A stretch of DNA of 41,742 nucleotides from Candidatus Oleimmundimicrobium sp. (GTDB lineage: Bacteria > Actinomycetota > Aquicultoria > UBA3085 > Oleimmundimicrobiaceae): the NCBI RefSeq assembly GCF_030651595.1, contig NZ_JAUSCH010000138.1, positions 1 to 41,742 of the forward strand, in the 5' to 3' direction. Under the pieces are notes generated by a model. It worked only from the letters and a program-made list of their open reading frames with translations. It was not told the DNA's origin and did not search any database. Below are positions 11,564 to 30,482 of this stretch, one piece after another; within the stretch, counting starts at the first letter, position 1, and each line of letters starts with the position of its first letter. The translations under genes were made by a program, and so were the position numbers.

Positions 11564-12586
11564 TTAACTTTCAATCTTTACAATATCTTCTAATTCCGAA
11601 GGCAATGTATCCGCATCCTTCGTAAGTGGTGGATTGTAAGCAGGTTGACCTGAATCATTCATAATTTTCTGACCCTTCTCGCTCAGAAGCATCTTTATGA
11701 AGGCCATGGCAACCTCAGGATTTTCTGAATTTTTGGGAATCGTTACACCGTAGATGATAAATTTGCCTTTTTGAGCTTTACCATCCGCCAACGTTATTGA
11801 CGCCTGAGCATAAAAATCCGCCAACTCCTCCTTCTCGAGGTTTATCTCTTCAGGCAACTCCAAGATCTTCAAACCGTGCTGTTTCGCGACGGAAAGATAT
11901 TCAAACGCGTAATCCAAATCGCCGGATTGAAGAAGAGATACAAGCTCAACCGACTTGGGTCTTATATTTTCCTTAGGACAGTGGTCAATTAATGCTTGGT
12001 TTAAGCCATCAATGCCGTAATGCTTCTCGGCCAATTGAAAGACTTGACGAGCCCTGTAACCGCAAGGGTCGGAGTCGGGATCCGAATGACCGTACATTAC
12101 ACCATCTCTCTGAAATATTTCATACCAGTTGTCTTTAGTTATTTCATCCGCGTATTTGCTTTTATCGGTATAGGCGATGACCATTCTGTTGCTCGCAAAT
12201 TTTACATTCCAGTTAGCATAATCCGGCTTAAGAAGTTCATCTATGACCGTATAATCGGCTGAAGCCATAACATCACAGTTCTTCTTTAGTTCACATATCT
12301 TTTTAGCACAGTCGCGACTTCCGGCACCCTCAAGAAGAACCTTCACATTGGGATGCTCTTTTTCAAACTCGGTCTTAAGCGTTTCAAATGGCTCCTTAAG
12401 ACTCCCGGCATGAAATACAATTAAATCGCCCTTTAGTGTATCTTTTTCCTCAACCTTTTCCATAACTTTCTCTTCCGGCTTTTCTTCTGTTTTCTGACAG
12501 CCAACCACCCCAAAAGTTAGCGCGGCAATAAGCAGTAATGAAAACAAAATAACTATTGCATTCTTAAATCGACTTTTTCCAAACAT
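11564..12586 (-). CDS. wtpA: Tungstate/molybdate-binding lipoprotein WtpA-type
   Basis: This is the extracytoplasmic binding protein of the importer. It is 340 residues from the ATG at 12586 (GGAG eight bases upstream). An N-terminal membrane stretch ends in V-V-G-C, a lipobox, so the mature protein is a lipoprotein. A Lys/Glu-rich linker follows. WtpA-family landmarks are D-L-I-V-F-H-A-G-S-L, A-G-S-R-D-C-A-K-K-I, M-A-S-A-D-Y, F-A-S-N-R-M-V-I-A-Y-T, S-D-P-D-S-D-P-C-G-Y-R and D-Y-A-F-E-Y. The Asp in the S-D-P stretch and the Glu in F-E-Y correspond to carboxylates that give six-fold metal coordination in archaeal WtpA/ModA. It is preceded by a Moco-type riboswitch and terminator. Confidence 0.92.
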   Translation of the reverse strand: MFGKSRFKNAIVILFSLLLIAALTFGVVGCQKTEEKPEEKVMEKVEEKDTLKGDLIVFHAGSLKEPFETLKTEFEKEHPNVKVLLEGAGSRDCAKKICELKKNCDVMASADYTVIDELLKPDYANWNVKFASNRMVIAYTDKSKYADEITKDNWYEIFQRDGVMYGHSDPDSDPCGYRARQVFQLAEKHYGIDGLNQALIDHCPKENIRPKSVELVSLLQSGDLDYAFEYLSVAKQHGLKILELPEEINLEKEELADFYAQASITLADGKAQKGKFIIYGVTIPKNSENPEVAMAFIKMLLSEKGQKIMNDSGQPAYNPPLTKDADTLPSELEDIVKIES

Positions 12587-12675
12587 AACTTGCACTCCTT
12601 TTTATATAGTTTACTTAGTAAAATCAAACAACTACTCTTTATTTCCCTTAATGAAATCACCTCCTTTTAAAAAAA

Positions 12676-12708
12676 TAAAAAACCGGCATCTAAGTGACTA
12701 CCGGTCTT
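12676..12708 (-). terminator. Intrinsic terminator in the wtpA leader
   Basis: In the minus-strand transcript ACCGG (12705-12701) pairs with CCGGT (12686-12682), extended by A-U and G-U pairs, and is followed by a run of T (TTTTTTATTTTTTT). The loop contains GTCAC (12698-12694), which is complementary to GTGAC in the upstream aptamer (12775-12771), suggesting an antiterminator pairing. It is placed between the riboswitch and the wtpA ribosome site, as expected for attenuation. Confidence 0.8.
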
Positions 12709-12721
12709 TTTGTAAAACCAG

Positions 12722-12826
12722 TCTCCTTTCCGTCACGGGAGGCAGTACCGTTTCCGGTAAAACCCTATCGGTCACATTCCTTGCCTCGCAAAAGTTTTGC
12801 GAGGTTTAGGTCAAGCGACTCGGAGA
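12722..12826 (-). ncRNA. Moco-type riboswitch upstream of wtpA
   Basis: Reading the minus strand: TCTCCGAG opens (closing stem TCTCC/GGAGA, 12826-12822 with 12726-12722); then CGCTTGACC, a hairpin CCTCGC..GCGAGG (12804-12784), CAAGGAATGTGACCGA, a GNRA hairpin ACCGGAAACGGT (about 12758-12747), CTGCCTCCCG and GGAAAGGAGA. This order and these words match my recollection of the Moco RNA motif. Its place before a Mo/W transporter and the terminator just downstream fit. The separate terminator suggests that ligand binding stops transcription, so uptake falls when cofactor is plentiful. The ligand (Mo or W cofactor) is inferred. Confidence 0.85.
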
Positions 12827-12839
12827 AAAAACATATTTA

Positions 12840-12868
12840 ATTAAATTATTAAAAACTATTAAAAACAA
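12840..12868 (-). promoter_or_regulatory. Candidate promoter for the riboswitch-wtpA transcript
   Basis: TTGTTT (12868-12863), a 17-base spacer and TTTAAT (12845-12840) on the minus strand overlap the stop codon of the small HTH gene and end just before the aptamer. The match is weak and the region is AT-rich, so read-through from the HTH gene is the alternative. Confidence 0.35.
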
Positions 12869-13047
12869 CCGAGTTGGCAACCATAGAGCTTTATCTCAAG
12901 CTCGTTTACAACGTCGCCAACCACTTTTGGGGATACGCCCAACTCCTTTGCTATTTTATGAGCCATCGGGCAGGAAATTTTCCCCTCTTTAGCTTTCTCT
13001 TTAACTATTTTCTTAATTTTATTTAAATCACAAGATTCAGATGACAT
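12859..13047 (-). CDS. Small helix-turn-helix-like protein with terminal cysteines
   Basis: A 62-residue protein with a strong ribosome site (AAGGAGGG). It begins M-S-S-E-S-C-D-L-N-K-I-K-K-I; residues 26-50 (C-P-M-A-H-K-I-A-K-E-L-G-V-S-P-K-V-V-G-D-V-V-N-E-L) look like a helix-turn-helix; the tail is Y-G-C-Q-L-G-C-F. The four cysteines (residues 6, 26, 57, 61) could bind a metal or cluster. It stands between two Moco/Tuco-like riboswitches, just before wtpA, so a Mo/W or redox regulator is a fair guess. I do not recognise a named family; no function is claimed. Confidence 0.7.
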   Translation of the reverse strand: MSSESCDLNKIKKIVKEKAKEGKISCPMAHKIAKELGVSPKVVGDVVNELEIKLYGCQLGCF

Positions 13048-13220: not shown

Positions 13221-13251
13221 TAAAAACGCCATTCCCAAATATGGAAATAGC
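13221..13251 (-). terminator. Terminator-like hairpin downstream of the variant riboswitch
   Basis: Minus strand: GCTATTTCC (13251-13243) pairs with GGGAATGGC (13236-13228) over nine positions with a six-base loop ATATTT, followed by GTTTTTAG. It lies 13-36 bases after the closing stem of the riboswitch-like region and upstream of the small HTH gene. Confidence 0.6.
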
Positions 13252-13263
13252 ATCATCTTAAGA

Positions 13264-13390
13264 CACTCCTTTCCAAATACGAGAGGCATAAAAATTTCTT
13301 TTTACACCCTATGAGCCCTAAACTTAAAGAACCCTGCGGTTACTTCCCCTGCTTTGCTTTTGCAAAGTTTAGTAAAAGTAACTCGGAGCA
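13264..13390 (-). ncRNA. Variant Moco/Tuco-type riboswitch upstream of the small HTH gene
   Basis: Minus strand: TGCTCCGAG opens and GGAAAGGAGTG closes (stem UGCUCC/GGAGUG). Between them are GTTACTT..AAGTAAC (second stem), a nested hairpin CTTTGC..GCAAAG, and GGTGTAAAAA..TTTTTATGCC followed by CTCTCGTATTTGGAAAGG. The last part matches the riboswitch before the formate dehydrogenase (TATACCTGCCGTATTTGCAAAGG) and more loosely the canonical copy at 12722-12826. The GNRA hairpin of the canonical copy is replaced here, a change I recall as being linked to tungsten-cofactor sensing. Ligand and function are inferred. Confidence 0.6.
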
Positions 13391-13458
13391 CACATATTAA
13401 ATTTACCTTTTATATTCTATCTAATTTACCCTTTCCCTTTAAATTTTAAAAAAATTTT

Positions 13459-22765: not shown

Positions 22766-22850
22766 TGTTAAAAACAGCCTTTAAAAGCAGCCCTTAAGTT
22801 CAGCCCCTAACTATTTGCCATAAGCCATCTGCTATCAGCTATCAGCCATT
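22766..22850. repeat. Short dispersed repeat before the fdhD stop
   Basis: AAAAACAGCCTTT..CCCTTAAG..CAGCCCC resembles the ccmE upstream gap (about 4634-4670), and GCCATCTGCTATCAGCTATCAGCC resembles 6236-6262. The repeat runs into the last codons of fdhD (stop at 22842), so the end of that protein may have been shaped by it. Confidence 0.5.
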
Positions 22851-23615
22851 CTTATCCATCCCTATCCTTTTGGGATGGGTATAAACATACATCTTTCCGG
22901 CCCTAACATAACCTATTACAGAAACCCCAAATTTTTTTCCAACTTCAATTGAGATATCTGTCGGAGTAGAACGAGAAGCTGCAACCGGTATCCCCATCTT
23001 CACCAATTTGTTAAGCATCTCTGAAGAGATTCGCCCGGTTGTAAAAACCATTTTATCCTCAGCGGGAACATTATTCAGTAACATATATCCCAAAACTTTA
23101 TCGATAGTATTATGACGCCCAATATCCTCTTGGATGGAAAAAATATCATTTTCACTACAGAGAGCTGAACAATGAACCCCTCCGGTTGAACGATGAATCT
23201 CCGTGGACCGCAAAAATTTTCCCATTAAACTGATAATCTTATTAGCAGAAAAACTTTTAGAGCAACCAACAACTTTCAAATTCCCCTCTTTTAAGGGATT
23301 CGAAAAAGTTATTCCTTTACCAAAACCAGACGTAAATATCTTATTTTTTGGTTTCCGTAAAACTGAATCAACTTCCACCCTTACTGTTCCACTCTTTTCA
23401 TCAGACGATATTGCCTTTATGCCCTTTACCCCATTAATAAAACCCTCGCTGTAAAGAAAACCTACAGCTAATTCATTAAGGTTTTTGGGGGTCCCCATTA
23501 GTGTAACCAGATTTTCATCATTTAATATGATAGTGATAGGTTTCTCTTTGGGAGCTGACATAATTACTTTTGATAGATTTCCATCATATTTAATTACATT
23601 AAACTTAGTTGACAT
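22842..23615 (-). CDS. fdhD: Formate dehydrogenase accessory sulfurtransferase FdhD, catalytic Cys missing
   Basis: FdhD passes sulfur to the Mo/W cofactor of formate dehydrogenase. The 257-residue protein matches the family: L-N-E-L-A-V-G-F-L-Y-S-E-G-F-I, S-T-G-G-V-H-C-S-A-L, Q-E-D-I-G-R-H-N-T-I-D-K-V-L-G, T-T-G-R-I-S-S-E-M and A-A-S-R-S-T-P-T. Where homologues have the sulfur-carrying cysteine loop (CXXC in E. coli, single Cys in many others), this one reads T-S-G-F-G-K-G, with Phe98 (codon TTT at 23324-23322). Other cysteines (118, 148, 152) exist. It starts next to the mobA stop. Confidence 0.93.
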   Translation of the reverse strand: MSTKFNVIKYDGNLSKVIMSAPKEKPITIILNDENLVTLMGTPKNLNELAVGFLYSEGFINGVKGIKAISSDEKSGTVRVEVDSVLRKPKNKIFTSGFGKGITFSNPLKEGNLKVVGCSKSFSANKIISLMGKFLRSTEIHRSTGGVHCSALCSENDIFSIQEDIGRHNTIDKVLGYMLLNNVPAEDKMVFTTGRISSEMLNKLVKMGIPVAASRSTPTDISIEVGKKFGVSVIGYVRAGKMYVYTHPKRIGMDKNG

Positions 23616-24215
23616 TTATTTCTCCAACTCAACATAAATTTCTTTTGCTCGCTCAAAATCCTCAAAAGTGTTTATATTGTAAAAAGAAAGAAGTCTTGAA
23701 TCAAATTCGATAACCTTATCTTCTTTTATCTTCTTAACTTTAACATCTTTAAAAAAAGAAATTATTTTAAAATCTTGATTCCTCAACCTCTCTTCAATAT
23801 ATCCTACACAATTTTTAGAATATATGGCTTGAAGCGGCTCCGGCCCAGATTTTGATTCGGGAATAACCACATCAAAATCCTTCGCCTCCGCAATCAAATG
23901 TTTAGCAAGGTTTAGGTTGAGAAACGGGGTATCGCAAGAAACAATAAAATTGTGAAAATGATTTGATGCCTTAAGACCGGCCAGCATTCCACCTAACGGC
24001 CCTTGATGTGGAATTTCGTCCTGAGCAACCTCCACCCCGCTCATCTTATGAAGTTCAGGAGTATTTGAAACTAAAATAACTTCTTCACACAACAAATAAA
24101 GCTTGCCAACTAAATCTTCCAAAATTGTCTTAGCCCCAAGCTTTAAAAGACATTTATCCGTGCCCAATCTTGAACTTTTACCACCTGTAAGAATAATTCC
24201 GGCTATCTTTTCCAT
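23616..24215 (-). CDS. mobA: Molybdenum cofactor guanylyltransferase MobA
   Basis: MobA adds GMP to Mo/W-molybdopterin. The 199-residue protein has G-I-I-L-T-G-G-K-S-S-R-L-G-T-D-K (nucleotide binding), D-E-I-P-H-Q-G-P-L-G-G-M-L-A-G-L, V-S-C-D-T-P-F-L-N and E-P-L-Q-A-I-Y-S. ATG start. Together with mobB, fdhD and fdhE it forms the maturation set for the bis-MGD formate dehydrogenase. Confidence 0.95.
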   Translation of the reverse strand: MEKIAGIILTGGKSSRLGTDKCLLKLGAKTILEDLVGKLYLLCEEVILVSNTPELHKMSGVEVAQDEIPHQGPLGGMLAGLKASNHFHNFIVSCDTPFLNLNLAKHLIAEAKDFDVVIPESKSGPEPLQAIYSKNCVGYIEERLRNQDFKIISFFKDVKVKKIKEDKVIEFDSRLLSFYNINTFEDFERAKEIYVELEK

Positions 24216-24222
24216 CTGTTGT

Positions 24223-25134
24223 TTAATTCATTTCAATAGGTGATTGTGTTATGGGAGAATAACCTTTCTTCTTGGCAACCGCGTCAAGATGAATAGTCGC
24301 CACATCTTCCACCCTTAAGATAACATCTCTTCCCAATTCTTTTTCGTTTGACAATTTTCCATATCTTTTGCACTTATCACAAAGCTCAACCTGGTGACCT
24401 TTATCGTCTTCCGGATAAAAAATTGAGAGCAATTTGTTATTAACATTACCGCAAAAAGCACAGCGGATTCGCTGTGTCCACCATTCAGTTTTGCAAACAG
24501 AGCAACTTTGAAGTTTTAATCCATCTTTTTTTCGCAGTTTCATTATATAAGGACGATTGCCGCATATTGGACAAAACTCTTTACCCCAATGATGATGATT
24601 AATCTTTGATCTTAACCCCAGAGAATATGCTTCATAAAAAGGACTGAGTGTATTGGTAATCATAAACAAAAGAACATCTTTATTGATATTTTTTTCTTTA
24701 CATAAATTCTCAAAAAAAGAGTTGTCCCCCTCCTCAAATTTTTCAATAAGCACTCCGATATTCTTAGTTTTTAATTCATCAGCCTCCAAAATTTTATCTA
24801 GCGCAATGGGTTTTTGAAGACTTTTTTCTTTAACTATCTCAACTAATTTAGTAAGTAGCTCTCTAAACAACTCTGAAGAAATTTCTCCTCTTTTTGTTGA
24901 TAAAAGGGGAGTCCCTCCTTTTAAAATTTTTGCTATTTCGTCCTCTGAAAAATCAAATCCGGAAACATCGATTTTATTAACATATTCAAGCTGTAATTCA
25001 AAAATCGACCCAAATAAATTAAGAATTCTCTCCAAAGTCGGAAATTTCTTTTTGTAAAAGTTTATTTCCTCTTCGATATCCTTTTTCGAAGGTATTTTTT
25101 GTTCTAATTTAAGAATTGCAAACACTCCTTTCAA
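24223..25134 (-). CDS. fdhE: Formate dehydrogenase accessory protein FdhE
   Basis: A 303-residue protein with an alpha-helical N-terminal half and rubredoxin-like CXXC knuckles: C-P-I-C-G-N-R-P, C-S-V-C-K-T-E-W, C-A-F-C-G-N, C-D-K-C-K-R-Y, then H-L-D-A-V-A near the end. FdhE is needed for assembly of exported formate dehydrogenases. The start is uncertain: the TTG at 25134 has no clear ribosome site, while AAAGGAG lies just inside it and could serve an ATT codon six codons on. A promoter lies immediately upstream. Confidence 0.9.
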   Translation of the reverse strand: MKGVFAILKLEQKIPSKKDIEEEINFYKKKFPTLERILNLFGSIFELQLEYVNKIDVSGFDFSEDEIAKILKGGTPLLSTKRGEISSELFRELLTKLVEIVKEKSLQKPIALDKILEADELKTKNIGVLIEKFEEGDNSFFENLCKEKNINKDVLLFMITNTLSPFYEAYSLGLRSKINHHHWGKEFCPICGNRPYIMKLRKKDGLKLQSCSVCKTEWWTQRIRCAFCGNVNNKLLSIFYPEDDKGHQVELCDKCKRYGKLSNEKELGRDVILRVEDVATIHLDAVAKKKGYSPITQSPIEMN

Positions 25135-25255: not shown

Positions 25256-26095
25256 TTAGTGAAGGGGAATTCCTCCGTAAAGAGCTATATATTTCCAGAG
25301 AAATACGCCTAGAAGTGCGAGTACAGATGATACAGCGCCCATGTTCTTGGCAGCGAAGCCCACAACTATCGGAGCAACAATGCCTATTGCAACAACACCG
25401 AGCCAGAAAGCGAGGGCATAGCTACCACTTATTAAGATGGCGCCAGCGTCTCCTGAGCTAAATGCGAAGATTAAAATCGCAATTGCTGCAATAATTAAAG
25501 CCATCGTGAGAGCTTTTGAGAGCGCTCCTTCGGCCTCTTCATCCTTCTCCGATGAAAGAGAGAGAATGAGTCTAATTAAGGCAATGCCGCTTACAACAGA
25601 TACGGCAACCCAAGTAGCCGGAAGGAAGATACTCGTCCCCCAAAGAGACACAGCTTTGTCGGCAAGAATTACTCCGGAATATCCCATAACACCTACGCCA
25701 AGGATTATTCCGATAACCGACAAGACTTTCCTTAGTCCCTCTTTACCTTTAAGGAAGGGAAGTATTCCCTTATCTTCAGCTAAGAAGATAGCGGGAATCA
25801 ACACCCCTGCCACAACGGTAAAGGGAATAAGAATCCAAACCCCCATATTCATCGATGAGAGTGGCTTTATTATCATGAAGTGCCAGAAGTAAATAACTCG
25901 AGTTAACGGAAGGTCAAGTAGCAAAAATATCATCGTTACCGCAACCAAGGGAAGCACACAGAAGGAGCCAATTTTGGCAAGTCTTCTGTATTTACCCTTG
26001 CTGAAGAAGTCGGCCAGAGCGCCAACAAAGAAACAGGCTCCCGCCATACCTCCTAGAAACATTTCGACTACAAGCATCCAATTCCAGTGATGCAT
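25256..26095 (-). CDS. NrfD/PsrC-type membrane anchor subunit of formate dehydrogenase
   Basis: A 279-residue membrane protein with about eight helices, opening M-H-H-W-N-W-M-L-V-V-E-M-F-L-G-G-M-A-G-A-C-F-F, the usual NrfD start. Such subunits exchange electrons with the quinone pool and replace the cytochrome b gamma subunit of FdnGHI. The ATG directly follows the fdnH stop. The final residues include short hydrophobic A/G-rich helices. Quinone use is inferred. Confidence 0.9.
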   Translation of the reverse strand: MHHWNWMLVVEMFLGGMAGACFFVGALADFFSKGKYRRLAKIGSFCVLPLVAVTMIFLLLDLPLTRVIYFWHFMIIKPLSSMNMGVWILIPFTVVAGVLIPAIFLAEDKGILPFLKGKEGLRKVLSVIGIILGVGVMGYSGVILADKAVSLWGTSIFLPATWVAVSVVSGIALIRLILSLSSEKDEEAEGALSKALTMALIIAAIAILIFAFSSGDAGAILISGSYALAFWLGVVAIGIVAPIVVGFAAKNMGAVSSVLALLGVFLWKYIALYGGIPLH

Positions 26096-26929
26096 TTACT
26101 TACCCCCCTTTCCTTCGGCTTCCGCGGCTTTAAATACCATCCAAAACGGAACGATGGTAAGTATGCCCGCGGTGATGAGGCCGGTTAGCCACTTGGTAAC
26201 CATATCAGCCGTAGATACTTTTGGATCTGCCGGCAGACCGTAAACTTCCGGATCATCAGTTAGAACGTAAATTACACCCGTTCCACCAACGCCAGCAGGA
26301 TTATAGACCTGAGCTTTAACTTCGCCGCGTTCTTGAAGAAGCGCTACGCGGGTATTGGCAACATCAAGCATTTCTTCTTTGTCTCCGAATTGAAGAGCAT
26401 CCGGAGGACAAGTTGTAACACATGCCGGCTCAAGGCCATTTTGAACTCTGTCGATACAGCCGCGACATTTAAACATGGTGCCCGCAATTCTCTTTCCGGG
26501 TACCTCATTCCCATGTTCCATCCATTCTTTTTCTGACTCGGAAATTTCCTCTCTAAACTTAGGAACTCCCCCCCAGAATGGACAGGCATAGTGACAATTC
26601 TTGCAACCTATGCAGACGTCATTGTCGATTAAGACAAAACCCGTTTCTTCATCTTTCTTGATAGCTCCTGCAGCACAAACGTTTGCACAACTGGGTTCTC
26701 CACAGTGCATACATCTTTGGCTGATAAAGTGCCATCTGAAACGATCCGGGTCGTCCTTCTCGATGAAGTCAATCAGGTTCCAGGTAGTTCCGTCGAGAGT
26801 CAAAGCATTGTAATAAGTTCCCATCGTCTTGTTCTCGGCTGCTGACAATACATTCCACTGCTTACAAGCAACATAACAAGCTCGACATGCGGTGCACTTT
26901 GATGCATCGTAAAGTATCGCTTTTGCCAT
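26096..26929 (-). CDS. fdnH: Formate dehydrogenase iron-sulfur subunit
   Basis: A 277-residue subunit with four [4Fe-4S] binding regions: C-T-A-C-R-A-C-Y-V-A-C, C-M-H-C-G-E-P-S-C-A-N-V-C, C-I-G-C-K-N-C-H-Y-A-C and C-R-G-C-I..C-V-T-T-C. A single C-terminal membrane helix (W-L-T-G-L-I-T-A-G-I-L-T-I-V-P-F-W) anchors it, as in FdnH. There is no own Tat signal, so it is probably exported with FdnG. It starts one base after the fdnG stop region. Confidence 0.95.
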   Translation of the reverse strand: MAKAILYDASKCTACRACYVACKQWNVLSAAENKTMGTYYNALTLDGTTWNLIDFIEKDDPDRFRWHFISQRCMHCGEPSCANVCAAGAIKKDEETGFVLIDNDVCIGCKNCHYACPFWGGVPKFREEISESEKEWMEHGNEVPGKRIAGTMFKCRGCIDRVQNGLEPACVTTCPPDALQFGDKEEMLDVANTRVALLQERGEVKAQVYNPAGVGGTGVIYVLTDDPEVYGLPADPKVSTADMVTKWLTGLITAGILTIVPFWMVFKAAEAEGKGGK

Positions 26930-26930
26930 C

Positions 26931-29900
26931 TTACTTCACCTTCCTTATATCCACGAGGAACGCTTTATACTCAGGAATCATTGTGTTGGCATCGCCCACA
27001 TGTGGAGTAAGTTGGTTAGCGGAATAGTTCATTGTCGGACACGCACCACCGGTACAAAGTCCGGCGTAACCGTAACACCAGGGAAGACCGGCAAAATGAA
27101 CCGTCTTACCATTGATGTCCATTGGTTTTACACGCCCGGTAACTATGGCTACCGCTTGCACAACTCCTCGAACATTAAACACCTCGACTGTTTCTCCGGG
27201 CTCAATACCCTTCTCATTAGCAAGTTCCTTGCTGATTTCCACGAACATCTCAGGCATTAAGTCTACCAACCACGGTTGGTTTCTGGTCATAATACCGGTC
27301 TGCCAATGCTCAGTAACTCTGTAAGTGGAAGCAACAATTGGATATTCGTCAGCCGTTCCAATCTTGGTATCCGGATTAATTTCATGCCAGAGCTTGACGC
27401 ATGGGTTACTTTGCTGACCGGACATGATGTTGTCAACGGGGCTTTCAATCGGCTCGTAGTGCTCAGGTAATGGGCCTTCGGTACACGGAGCAAATAGTTT
27501 GAAAACTCCCTCGTTTAACATGATGGCCGGCAAATCTCCACCAAGAGCACTCGGTGCTTTGGTTCCACCGAAGTCGGGAACGTCGTTACCCGTCCACATG
27601 CCAGGTTCGCCCGTTTTTGGATCAACCTTATTCGGGTCCCACCAAATCTCGGGAATTTCCGGATTCCACGGTTTTCCGTTGAGGTCGCAGGAAGCACGAT
27701 TGTACACGATTCTTCTGTTGACCGGCCAAGCAAACGCCCACTCGAGGTTATTTCCGATACCCTCAGCCTCCGGGATTCTTCTCTTCATGAGATTTTCACC
27801 ATCGGGAGTAAACGTACCGGAGAAGAGCCAGTTACCGCAGGCTGTTGACCCGTCTTTTTGAAGAGCAACGAAGTTTTTGTCGACAAGTTTATTCCTATTT
27901 GGCCATTCGTAACCGTGACAGGCCTTGGCCACTTCCTCAACATCAGGATCCCCGTTAGGCCCGGAGTAATCCCAGTTGACGTTGGTAATAATTTCAGCGC
28001 CAGCACCGCCTTCGGCTGCATAGAGTTTCTTGAGCTCTTTGACAACTAAGTCAACGATTTCAAGGTCTGTCTTGCAGTCGCCAAGCGGTTCGCAACCTTT
28101 CCAACGCCACTGAATCCAACGACCGGAATTACTGATGGAACCTTCTTTTTCGCAAGAGTCAGCTGCCGGAAGTCTCCAAACCTCGGTCTGAATTTCTTCA
28201 GTATTACATCCCGGGCGTTTCCAAAAGCTGTTTGTCTCGGTTTCCCAGAGGTTTAAATCAACCAGCCATTCGAGGTTGTCCATAGCAGCAGTTTCAATGT
28301 TGGAATTGGGGCCACCGATAGCCGGATTTTGACCCAAAACTATCATGCCTTTAATTTCTCCGGCATACATCGCTTCAAATAAAGCTATGTGGGAATACCC
28401 TCCACCTTGGAAGCCTTTTCCAATCTTTGGCAAATAGTCGAAGCGAAAATCATTATCGGCAGTTGCCGCGTCTCCCCACCATTCCTTGAGAAGAGATACG
28501 AGATACTTCTCGCCATTTCTCCACCAGGAAGTTGACCCGGGAAGAACATTTTGGGTAGCTTTGCCGACTGTGTATCCGTCTGCATAATCTCTAAAAGTCT
28601 CTCCCGCCTTCGGAATCGCTAGATAAGCTGGGAGTATGTGGAACAAGAGAGCGTGGTCAGTTGAACCTTGAACATTCGGTTCTCCCCTTAGAGCGTTAAC
28701 GCCGCCGCCAGGCCTTCCCATGTTACCTAAAAGTAACTGAAGCATAGAAAAGGAGCGAATATTTTCCACTCCGACTGTATGCTGAGTCCAACCCATAGCG
28801 TAGCAGATAGTCCCCGCTTTCTCAGGAGCACTCGTCTTTGAATACTCCTCGCAGATTTCCAAGAACTTATCCTTTGGAGTCCCGCAGATTTTCTCAACCA
28901 TCTCGGGAGTATAGCGAGCAACATGTTTCTTGAGAAGTTGCCATACGCAATTTGGATCAGACATGCTCATATCCCTTTTTGGAGAATGGAGGACCCCACC
29001 CGGGGCTTTTTCGTCCGGGATATCCTCTAATTGATAGCCCCAAGATGCCGTATCGTATTTTCTTGCCGTAGCATCATATCCGCTAAAGAGGCCGTTTAAA
29101 TCTCCCGGCAACTTAAACTCGGGATTAATCAATAAAGTAGCATTGGTGTAATACTTCACATAATCCTCATGATACTTCTTGTTTTGGATTACGTAGTTGA
29201 TCATAGCCATGATAAAGGCAATATCCGTACCTGAACGAATGGGCGCGTAAATATCAGCCTTTGCGGCAGAGCGGGTAAACCTCGGATCTACACAAATTAA
29301 TTTGGCTCCCCTCTCCTCCATGGCCTTGGTTATCCACTTGAAAGCCATTGGATGATTTTCTGCGGCATTGCCGCCCATAATAACGATACAATCACTGTTC
29401 TTCAAATCAACCCAGTGATTAGTCATACAACCTCTACCAAACGTCGGTCCCAAAGCTGCGACCGTGGCAGAGTGTCATATACGTGCTTGATGCTCAACAT
29501 AAACAAGTCCGAGAGTCCTCATCATTTTTATCCAAAGATAACACTCTTCGTTGTTTACAGCTGCGCCACCCAAAGCTGCGATAGCTTCAACGCGGTTAAC
29601 GAGATTTCCGTCCGCGTCTTTCTCCATGAAATACTTATCCCTGGTATCTTTTATTTTGCGAGCAATGTCGGGAATAGCATCTTCCCAGGTTCTTTCCTCC
29701 CAGTCACAGCCACCAGGTCCACGATAAAGCACTTTTTTGTTTCGTTTGCCAGCTACATCAGCTGCTATTTGAAATATCGAAGAACCCTTGGAACACAAGC
29801 TACCAAGATTTGTAGGATGGTCAGGATCACCATCTACGGCAATTGGATGACCGTGCTCATCTGAGTAAATAACAGCACCACAACCACAGGAACAGAAAGG

Positions 29901-30050
29901 ACAAATGGTATAAGCTATATTAGCGCCAGCCGTCCTGAGCTCTTCCGCCTCAGCCGCAACCGCTGCCATATCATAACCAAACTCCATAAGAGCAGTTGTC
30001 GCTACTGACGCGCCTGTAAGTTTTAAAAAACTTCTTCGTGTGAGCTTCAC
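26931..30050 (-). CDS. fdnG: Formate dehydrogenase catalytic subunit, selenocysteine-containing, Tat-exported
   Basis: One gene of 1039 residues, read through TGA at 29477-29475 as Sec192: Q-A-R-I-U-H-S-A-T-V-A-A-L-G-P-T-F-G-R-G, matching the FdnG active site. The N-terminus has the twin-arginine signal L-T-R-R-S-F-L-K-L. The [4Fe-4S] motif C-P-F-C-S-C-G-C with a later Cys (S-L-C-S-K-G) and the bis-MGD domains follow. The last part holds E-H-W-Q-T-G-I-M-T-R-N and the cap typical of Fdh alpha. The start is GTG at 30050, 12 bases after AAAGGAG. It oxidises formate on the outer face, passing electrons to FdnH and the NrfD subunit. Mo or W is not decided. Confidence 0.95.
29432..29474 (-). promoter_or_regulatory. 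SECIS hairpin for fdnG
   Basis: Directly after the TGA, CTCTGCCA (29472-29465) pairs with TGGTAGAG (29439-29432), eight pairs. Inside, CGGTC (29464-29460) pairs with GACCG (29449-29445) around a ten-base loop GCAGCTTTGG. The distance from the UGA and the G-containing apical loop fit bacterial SECIS elements. Confidence 0.8.
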
Positions 30051-30322
30051 GTTTATGGCTCACTCCTTTCTAAAATAGTTTATGACTTGCATGAAACCAA
30101 CTAACTTTCGGAACCCCCTGTAATGGATTAAAACAAAATAATTACTAACCCAAAATAATTTGGATTAATTTTGCAAGTCTAATTGATATCATTAGGGTTT
30201 CCGATTCTTTCCTCTTCTCTTCTGGCCTCACCCCCTTCTCTTTGATTTTTTACTCAAGCTTATCTATTTAATTAACCATGCTAACCTTGAGTAAAAAAGA
30301 TATGTATATTACAAATTAAAAT
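30051..30322 (-). other. Formate dehydrogenase 5' leader after the terminator, with a 13-bp inverted repeat
   Basis: This 270-base stretch between the riboswitch terminator and fdnG holds no gene. It contains a perfect inverted repeat TTTTTTACTCAAG (30246-30258) / CTTGAGTAAAAAA (30286-30298) separated by 27 bases. It also has a pyrimidine-rich tract near 30200-30245 and the AAAGGAG ribosome site of fdnG at 30062-30068. The inverted repeat could be an operator or an mRNA hairpin. Confidence 0.5.
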
Positions 30323-30361
30323 AAAAAAAGGAAACCCATGACAAATATGCCAAGGATCTCC
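30323..30361 (-). terminator. Terminator overlapping the riboswitch closing stem before fdnG
   Basis: Minus strand: GGAGAT (30361-30356) pairs with GTTTCC (30335-30330) over six positions, continued by CCTTGGCA with TGTCATGGG (one bulge), and followed by seven T. The 5' arm GGAGAT is the same strand that closes the riboswitch with ATCTCC (30443-30438), so the two folds exclude each other. Confidence 0.8.
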
Positions 30362-30443
30362 TTTGCAAATACGGCAGGTATAAAAATTGCTTCTTATACC
30401 TTATCGCTCACAATCTCCTCGAGGGAGAAAGTAAGTCGGAGAT
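30356..30443 (-). ncRNA. Variant Moco/Tuco-type riboswitch upstream of formate dehydrogenase
   Basis: Minus strand: ATCTCCGA opens and GCAAAGGAGAT closes. Inside are CUUAC..GUGAG enclosing a TCTCC..GGAGA hairpin, then GGTATAA..TTATACC and TGCCGTATTTGCAAAGG. Sequence and order follow the copy at 13264-13390 and, more loosely, the canonical one at 12722-12826; the GNRA hairpin is missing. It controls a Mo/W enzyme, the expected kind of target. Ligand binding should hold the closing stem and block the terminator, an ON switch. Identity is by pattern only. Confidence 0.65.
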
Positions 30444-30482
30444 TCTTTCAAAAAAATTCTCCACTTAGCCAAATTAAATTGT

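Follow-up and report, generated by a model that had tools for sequence, protein, structure and literature searches.

In the pbuE adenine riboswitch, a P1 helix held by the ligand prevents formation of a terminator, which results in ON control. This riboswitch of B. subtilis goes back to Mandal and Breaker 2004, as cited in PMC9481103. More closely related to the locus described below is the Moco RNA motif (RF01055; Regulski 2008, PMC2408646), which folds into helices P1, P2, P4 and P5 with a core that includes CUCCGA and AAAGGAG and precedes molybdenum and tungsten genes. Measurements of this RNA family exist for one member only, E. coli moaA, an OFF switch that works at the ribosome site, and direct ligand binding has not been demonstrated for the class, the cofactor being unstable (Regulski 2008, PMC2408646). 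The tungsten subtype (Tuco, known also as Wco) is recognised, by correlation, from its missing P3; deletion of P3 in E. coli abolished regulation and did not switch specificity (Regulski 2008, PMC2408646). Members with a GCAA loop are a minority of the family and lack the tetraloop receptor as a set (Regulski 2008, PMC2408646). In measurements the class is known solely for turning cofactor synthesis OFF, and correlation underlies the tungsten subtype.

We analysed a stretch of 41,742 nucleotides of Candidatus Oleimmundimicrobium sp. (the window). The fdnG leader in this window probably acts as a Moco/Tuco riboswitch that turns transcription ON, presumably in response to the tungsten cofactor. 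It shares helices, core and gene context with the Moco RNA motif. In contrast to the measured OFF member, P1 of the fdnG leader excludes a terminator, which predicts ON control, and in contrast to typical members its aptamer is compact, with a GCAA loop and no receptor. According to the best-supported reading, expression platform and compact aptamer appear to be new, while the riboswitch class is already known. Among the open literature covered, no description of a Moco/Tuco switch of ON type came up.

A compact Moco/Tuco aptamer upstream of the fdn operon

A covariance-model search with the Moco RNA family, proposed as a check in an earlier sequence-only reading of this DNA, returned an RF01055 match on the minus strand at 30453-30342 with 53.4 bits (E 3.9e-10; gathering score 36). 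The aptamer of 112 nt is located approximately 145 nt past rex and 291 nt ahead of fdnG. The sequence-only reading had placed the element at 30323-30443, the limits of which are exactly the last T of the U tract and the outer base of P1; the aptamer modelled by Rfam reaches slightly beyond the latter. The 5′ strand of P1 (AUCUCC, 30438-30443) was assigned from sequence, alignment and folding. Covariation supports P2 (30407-30435) and P4 (30376-30401). A GAAA loop on P4 and an 11-nt receptor in P2 are typical of RF01055 and not obligatory; inspection of loop and receptor showed a GCAA loop on P4 and a plain P2 without receptor. P3 is absent from the covariance-model alignment, as in the Tuco subtype.

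The downstream genes, all on the minus strand, form an operon for formate dehydrogenase. fdnG (26931-30050) encodes the alpha subunit of formate dehydrogenase-N (TIGR01553, 982 bits versus a cut-off of 814; Pfam) in an open frame with a GTG start, a TAT-like signal and a single in-frame TGA at 29477-29475, predicted to encode Sec. It is followed by genes for an fdnH-like 4Fe-4S iron-sulfur subunit (26096-26929, Pfam) and an NrfD-like membrane subunit (25256-26095, profile matches), and then by an fdhE-like accessory gene (24223-25134) and a mobA-like guanylyltransferase gene (23616-24215), whose profile matches lie under the curated cut-offs, and by fdhD (22842-23615; TIGR00129, 190.8 versus 140.9). 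The predicted target, fdnG in the earlier reading, is widened to an operon that also holds fdhE-, mobA- and fdhD-like genes.

The closing strand of P1 is part of an intrinsic terminator

The 3′ strand of P1, GGAGAU (30356-30361), is also the start of the 5′ arm of an intrinsic terminator, as had been read from the sequence: the hairpin opens with 30361-30356 and extends over 30361-30330, with exactly seven T directly behind it (30329-30323). Folding of the hairpin gave -16.8 kcal/mol (z -4.8), a value equalled by none of 200 dinucleotide shuffles. An RNA ending at 30350 adopted the aptamer fold, in which P1 had its full six pairs (-33.5, z -4.9), whereas the RNA reaching 30316 adopted the terminator fold without P1 (-47.5, z -6.5). 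The two folds cannot coexist, exactly as the sequence-only reading stated, and the terminator state lies 8.3 kcal/mol below the P1 state. Moreover, the invariant aptamer core AAAGG can also join the terminator stem. A simple terminator scan did not list this hairpin under its stem criteria, and a second, separate terminator was not found in the fdnG leader. Since the terminator uses the 3′ strand of P1 itself, a P1 held by ligand would remove it.

Conservation and covariation in compact relatives

RF01055 matches were gathered from the class and the phylum (Actinomycetota), which gave a set of 159 classified leaders. Ten of the aptamers stand apart as a compact group: they measure 110-114 nt, lack both the GAAA loop and its receptor, and score lower with RF01055 than other members. 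They precede fdnG in six cases, AOR (aldehyde:ferredoxin oxidoreductase) in two and an operon of ferredoxin and Mo-oxidoreductase in one, the remaining aptamer being located at a contig end; where the gene lies on the contig, it thus encodes a molybdenum or tungsten enzyme. In the alignment of these aptamers 97.9% of cells were paired, and 12 of 29 pairs had changed on both sides, compared to 5.3 in shuffles, none of 500 of which was as good. P1, P2, P4 and P5 were all present, P5 being invariant, and the core bases were invariant as well. The sequence-only reading, which had named missing covariance support in homologous leaders as grounds for its refutation, withstood this comparison.

The overlap of P1 and terminator is conserved as well. 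All ten terminators start within GGAG, at its first or second base. Despite sequence changes, 80 of 80 pairs of the lower terminator and 58 of 60 pairs of P1 remained intact; at one position, the P1 5′, shared and terminator 3′ bases read U-A-U, U-G-U, U-G-C, C-G-U or C-G-C across leaders. Each of the ten hairpins outperformed dinucleotide shuffles in which the P1 strand was kept (0-1 of 1000). The compact leaders are related, so that these counts are not independent events.

A covariance model (R1) built from the ten compact aptamers was run over 397 genomes of the phylum. It recovered two new compact matches, one of 83 and one of 80 bits, compared to 72 for the highest-scoring non-compact match. 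Both originate from a different class, and both carry a hairpin at +0 on GGAG with an identical overlap and AOR genes downstream, the products of which share 54% and 35% identity with the AOR of a sister genome of the window's (G001). In all 12 compact leaders the P1 3′ strand doubles as terminator 5′ arm in mutually exclusive folds. P1 was at least partly formed in the nascent RNA of 11 of the 12, and the terminator state was favoured over the P1 state by 4.4-12.9 kcal/mol. Like the described Tuco (Wco) subtype, compact members lack P3 and are linked to tungsten genes; unlike it, they have a shorter P2, and RF01055 at E 0.01 reported neither of the new switches, missing 2 of 12. We lean towards the view that compact aptamers without P3 and receptor are a distinct Moco/Tuco subclass, a tungsten-cofactor ON switch for tungsten oxidoreductases of deep-branching anaerobic Actinomycetota that is paired with OFF switches on metal import within one and the same genome and under-annotated because the Rfam model misses some members.

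Expression platform and gene type

In a table of 161 leaders, the shared strand was associated with enzyme genes. Among leaders with a terminator, 11 enzyme leaders shared the strand and four did not, compared to one and 86 transport or biosynthesis leaders (Fisher 9e-11, uncorrected for phylogeny). The terminator began at least 9 nt past GGAG in 84 of these 87 transport or biosynthesis leaders; two were intermediate and one overlap was doubtful. This last leader (G102), a long AT-rich hairpin behind a likely start codon, was retained as an exception. Most RF01055 relatives in the set are OFF-type, and folding showed that their separate terminator can coexist with P1. Pairing of the OFF-type terminator 5′ arm with the P1 3′ region averaged -9.7 kcal/mol versus -7.2 kcal/mol for shuffled arms.

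Four formate dehydrogenase leaders outside the compact group had no plain overlap. In two of them (L165 and L167, genomes G186 and G156 of another family), 80 nt separate P1 of the RF01055 aptamer from the terminator; the other two (G066, G052) exhibit an ambiguous long hairpin starting inside P1. OFF-type leaders are furthermore found upstream of secreted Oxidored_molyb-like genes of other orders (L111, L116, L124, L145 and similar).

Tandem OFF-type switches and a probable natural deletion

From the folds, both platform kinds are predicted to occur in the window: the ON type before fdnG and a tandem of OFF type before wtpABC, all on the minus strand. The first tandem aptamer (13250-13400, 61.4 bits) contains a P3-like stem (Moco type); its terminator (13228-13251) is separate from P1 and competes with an antiterminator at 13274-13243. 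The second aptamer (12707-12837, 64.5 bits) lacks P3 (Tuco type); its terminator (12681-12706) competes with an antiterminator at 12722-12700, formed in part by the end of the P1 3′ strand. Platform analysis and folding, respectively, support these assignments. The tandem is possibly a two-input gate for molybdenum and tungsten cofactors. The first gene of the transporter, wtpA (11564-12595), encodes a tungstate-binding protein (NF003196, 397 versus 355; TIGR03730, 343 versus 243). Genes for transport and use of tungsten, as expected for the Tuco subtype, are thus present in this genome as a WtpA equivalog and an AOR.

The latter shares 96.5% identity with the AOR of G001, which does carry the switch. 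In its own leader (L188, G000:C4), P2 and all that follows up to and including the terminator hairpin are missing, while the 5′ region of P1 and the U tract are still in place; this fossil compact switch is located on the minus strand about 100 nt ahead of the AOR start. Loss of the aptamer alone would lock the gene off under an ON model; here, aptamer and hairpin were lost together. The joint loss fits the ON model and is no proof of it, an assembly error in the MAG being another possible cause. AOR and the other Mo-oxidoreductases of this genome have no switch, so that the cofactor rule is not genome-wide.

Proposed mechanism, ligand and alternatives

In the proposed mechanism, P1 (AUCUCC/GGAGAU) would pair first, once the polymerase has cleared the aptamer. 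A pyranopterin cofactor, probably the tungsten form, would then bind and hold P1 with its 3′ strand occupied; the terminator would be unable to nucleate, and the polymerase would read through to the fdn operon (fdnGHI-like, fdhE-, mobA- and fdhD-like genes). If no ligand is bound, GGAGAU would be captured by the terminator and transcription would stop at the seven U. In the same genome, ample cofactor would lead the OFF-type relatives to switch off the tungstate importer, and by this combined logic cofactor would be spent when present and metal imported when absent. As in pbuE, a P1 held by ligand would block a terminator; aptamer and ligand, however, are unrelated. If true, the class would also exert feed-forward control on tungsten enzymes, and a natural pair of opposite switches for one ligand would exist in one genome. 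Furthermore, the leader, whose read-through would rise with cofactor, would offer a robust reporter for a ligand that is not stable enough for the usual binding assays.

Tungsten appears likelier than molybdenum as the sensed metal because P3 is absent, the genome encodes a tungstate-specific WtpA and AOR genes lie behind four compact switches. The earlier claim of an ON switch for formate dehydrogenase came through the covariance test, and the same overlap recurs in both held-out switches; as to the metal, it is refined from Mo/W in favour of tungsten. Formate dehydrogenase-N-type enzymes can carry molybdenum. It is conceivable, if a good deal less probable, that the same ON mechanism responds to the molybdenum cofactor, to metal-free molybdopterin or to a dinucleotide form: the P3 rule is correlative, and deletion of P3 in E. 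coli ended regulation without a switch in specificity (PMC2408646), while the three observations in favour of tungsten argue against it.

It is improbable that the compact aptamer, having lost GAAA loop, receptor and P3, has ceased to bind ligand and that the hairpin merely sets a fixed level of expression. The loss of tetraloop and receptor and the lower RF01055 scores would agree with such a ligand-blind attenuator, but the core bases are invariant, the helices covary, absence of the receptor is a shared trait of GCAA members (Regulski 2008, PMC2408646) and at AOR aptamer and terminator vanished together. Even less probable is an OFF switch in which ligand promotes termination, as in transport and biosynthesis relatives, via an antiterminator not recognised here. 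E. coli moaA (PMC2408646) and the majority of relatives in the leader set are OFF-type, whereas the fdnG terminator is built on the P1 3′ strand, so that a ligand-held P1 abolishes it, and the leader contains no second terminator that we could find. That a cofactor-sensing protein binds the leader RNA and drives the switch is equally hard to sustain: direct binding by the unstable cofactor has not been demonstrated for the class (PMC2408646), but the large conserved fold is typical of aptamers and the gene context suggests no RNA-binding partner.

Additional observations

Translational control of fdnG via P1 was rejected, the start codon lying about 305 nt past GGAGAU. A second RNA element in the spacer was likewise discarded, as conservation among more distant relatives is confined to the start region and a promoter-like block; a sigma-70 scan of the leader gave promoter hits at chance level, this conserved upstream block being the only promoter-like feature seen. 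The leader also contains an inverted repeat at 30244-30296 (TTTTTTACTCAAG ... CTTGAGTAAAAAA) without a U-rich tail. A GGAGA at 30458-30462 (minus strand) can pair with the P1 5′ strand; it is common only to the window and its closest relative, and we do not claim it as a third element trapping that strand.

Elsewhere in the family, the leaders of Oxidored_molyb-like genes named above often carry two successive terminators, both with CUUUCC. RF01055 leaders L108, L147, L112 and L131 precede genes for [NiFe] hydrogenase, aldehyde dehydrogenase and pyruvate kinase, which are not Mo/W enzymes, and possibly reflect isozyme control. Between the tandem switches of the window lies an ORF of 62 aa (12859-13047, minus strand) that is Cys-bearing and HTH-like and for which NCBIfam gave no match and Pfam none above its cut-off. 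Small ORFs similar to it sit beside related switches in other genomes.
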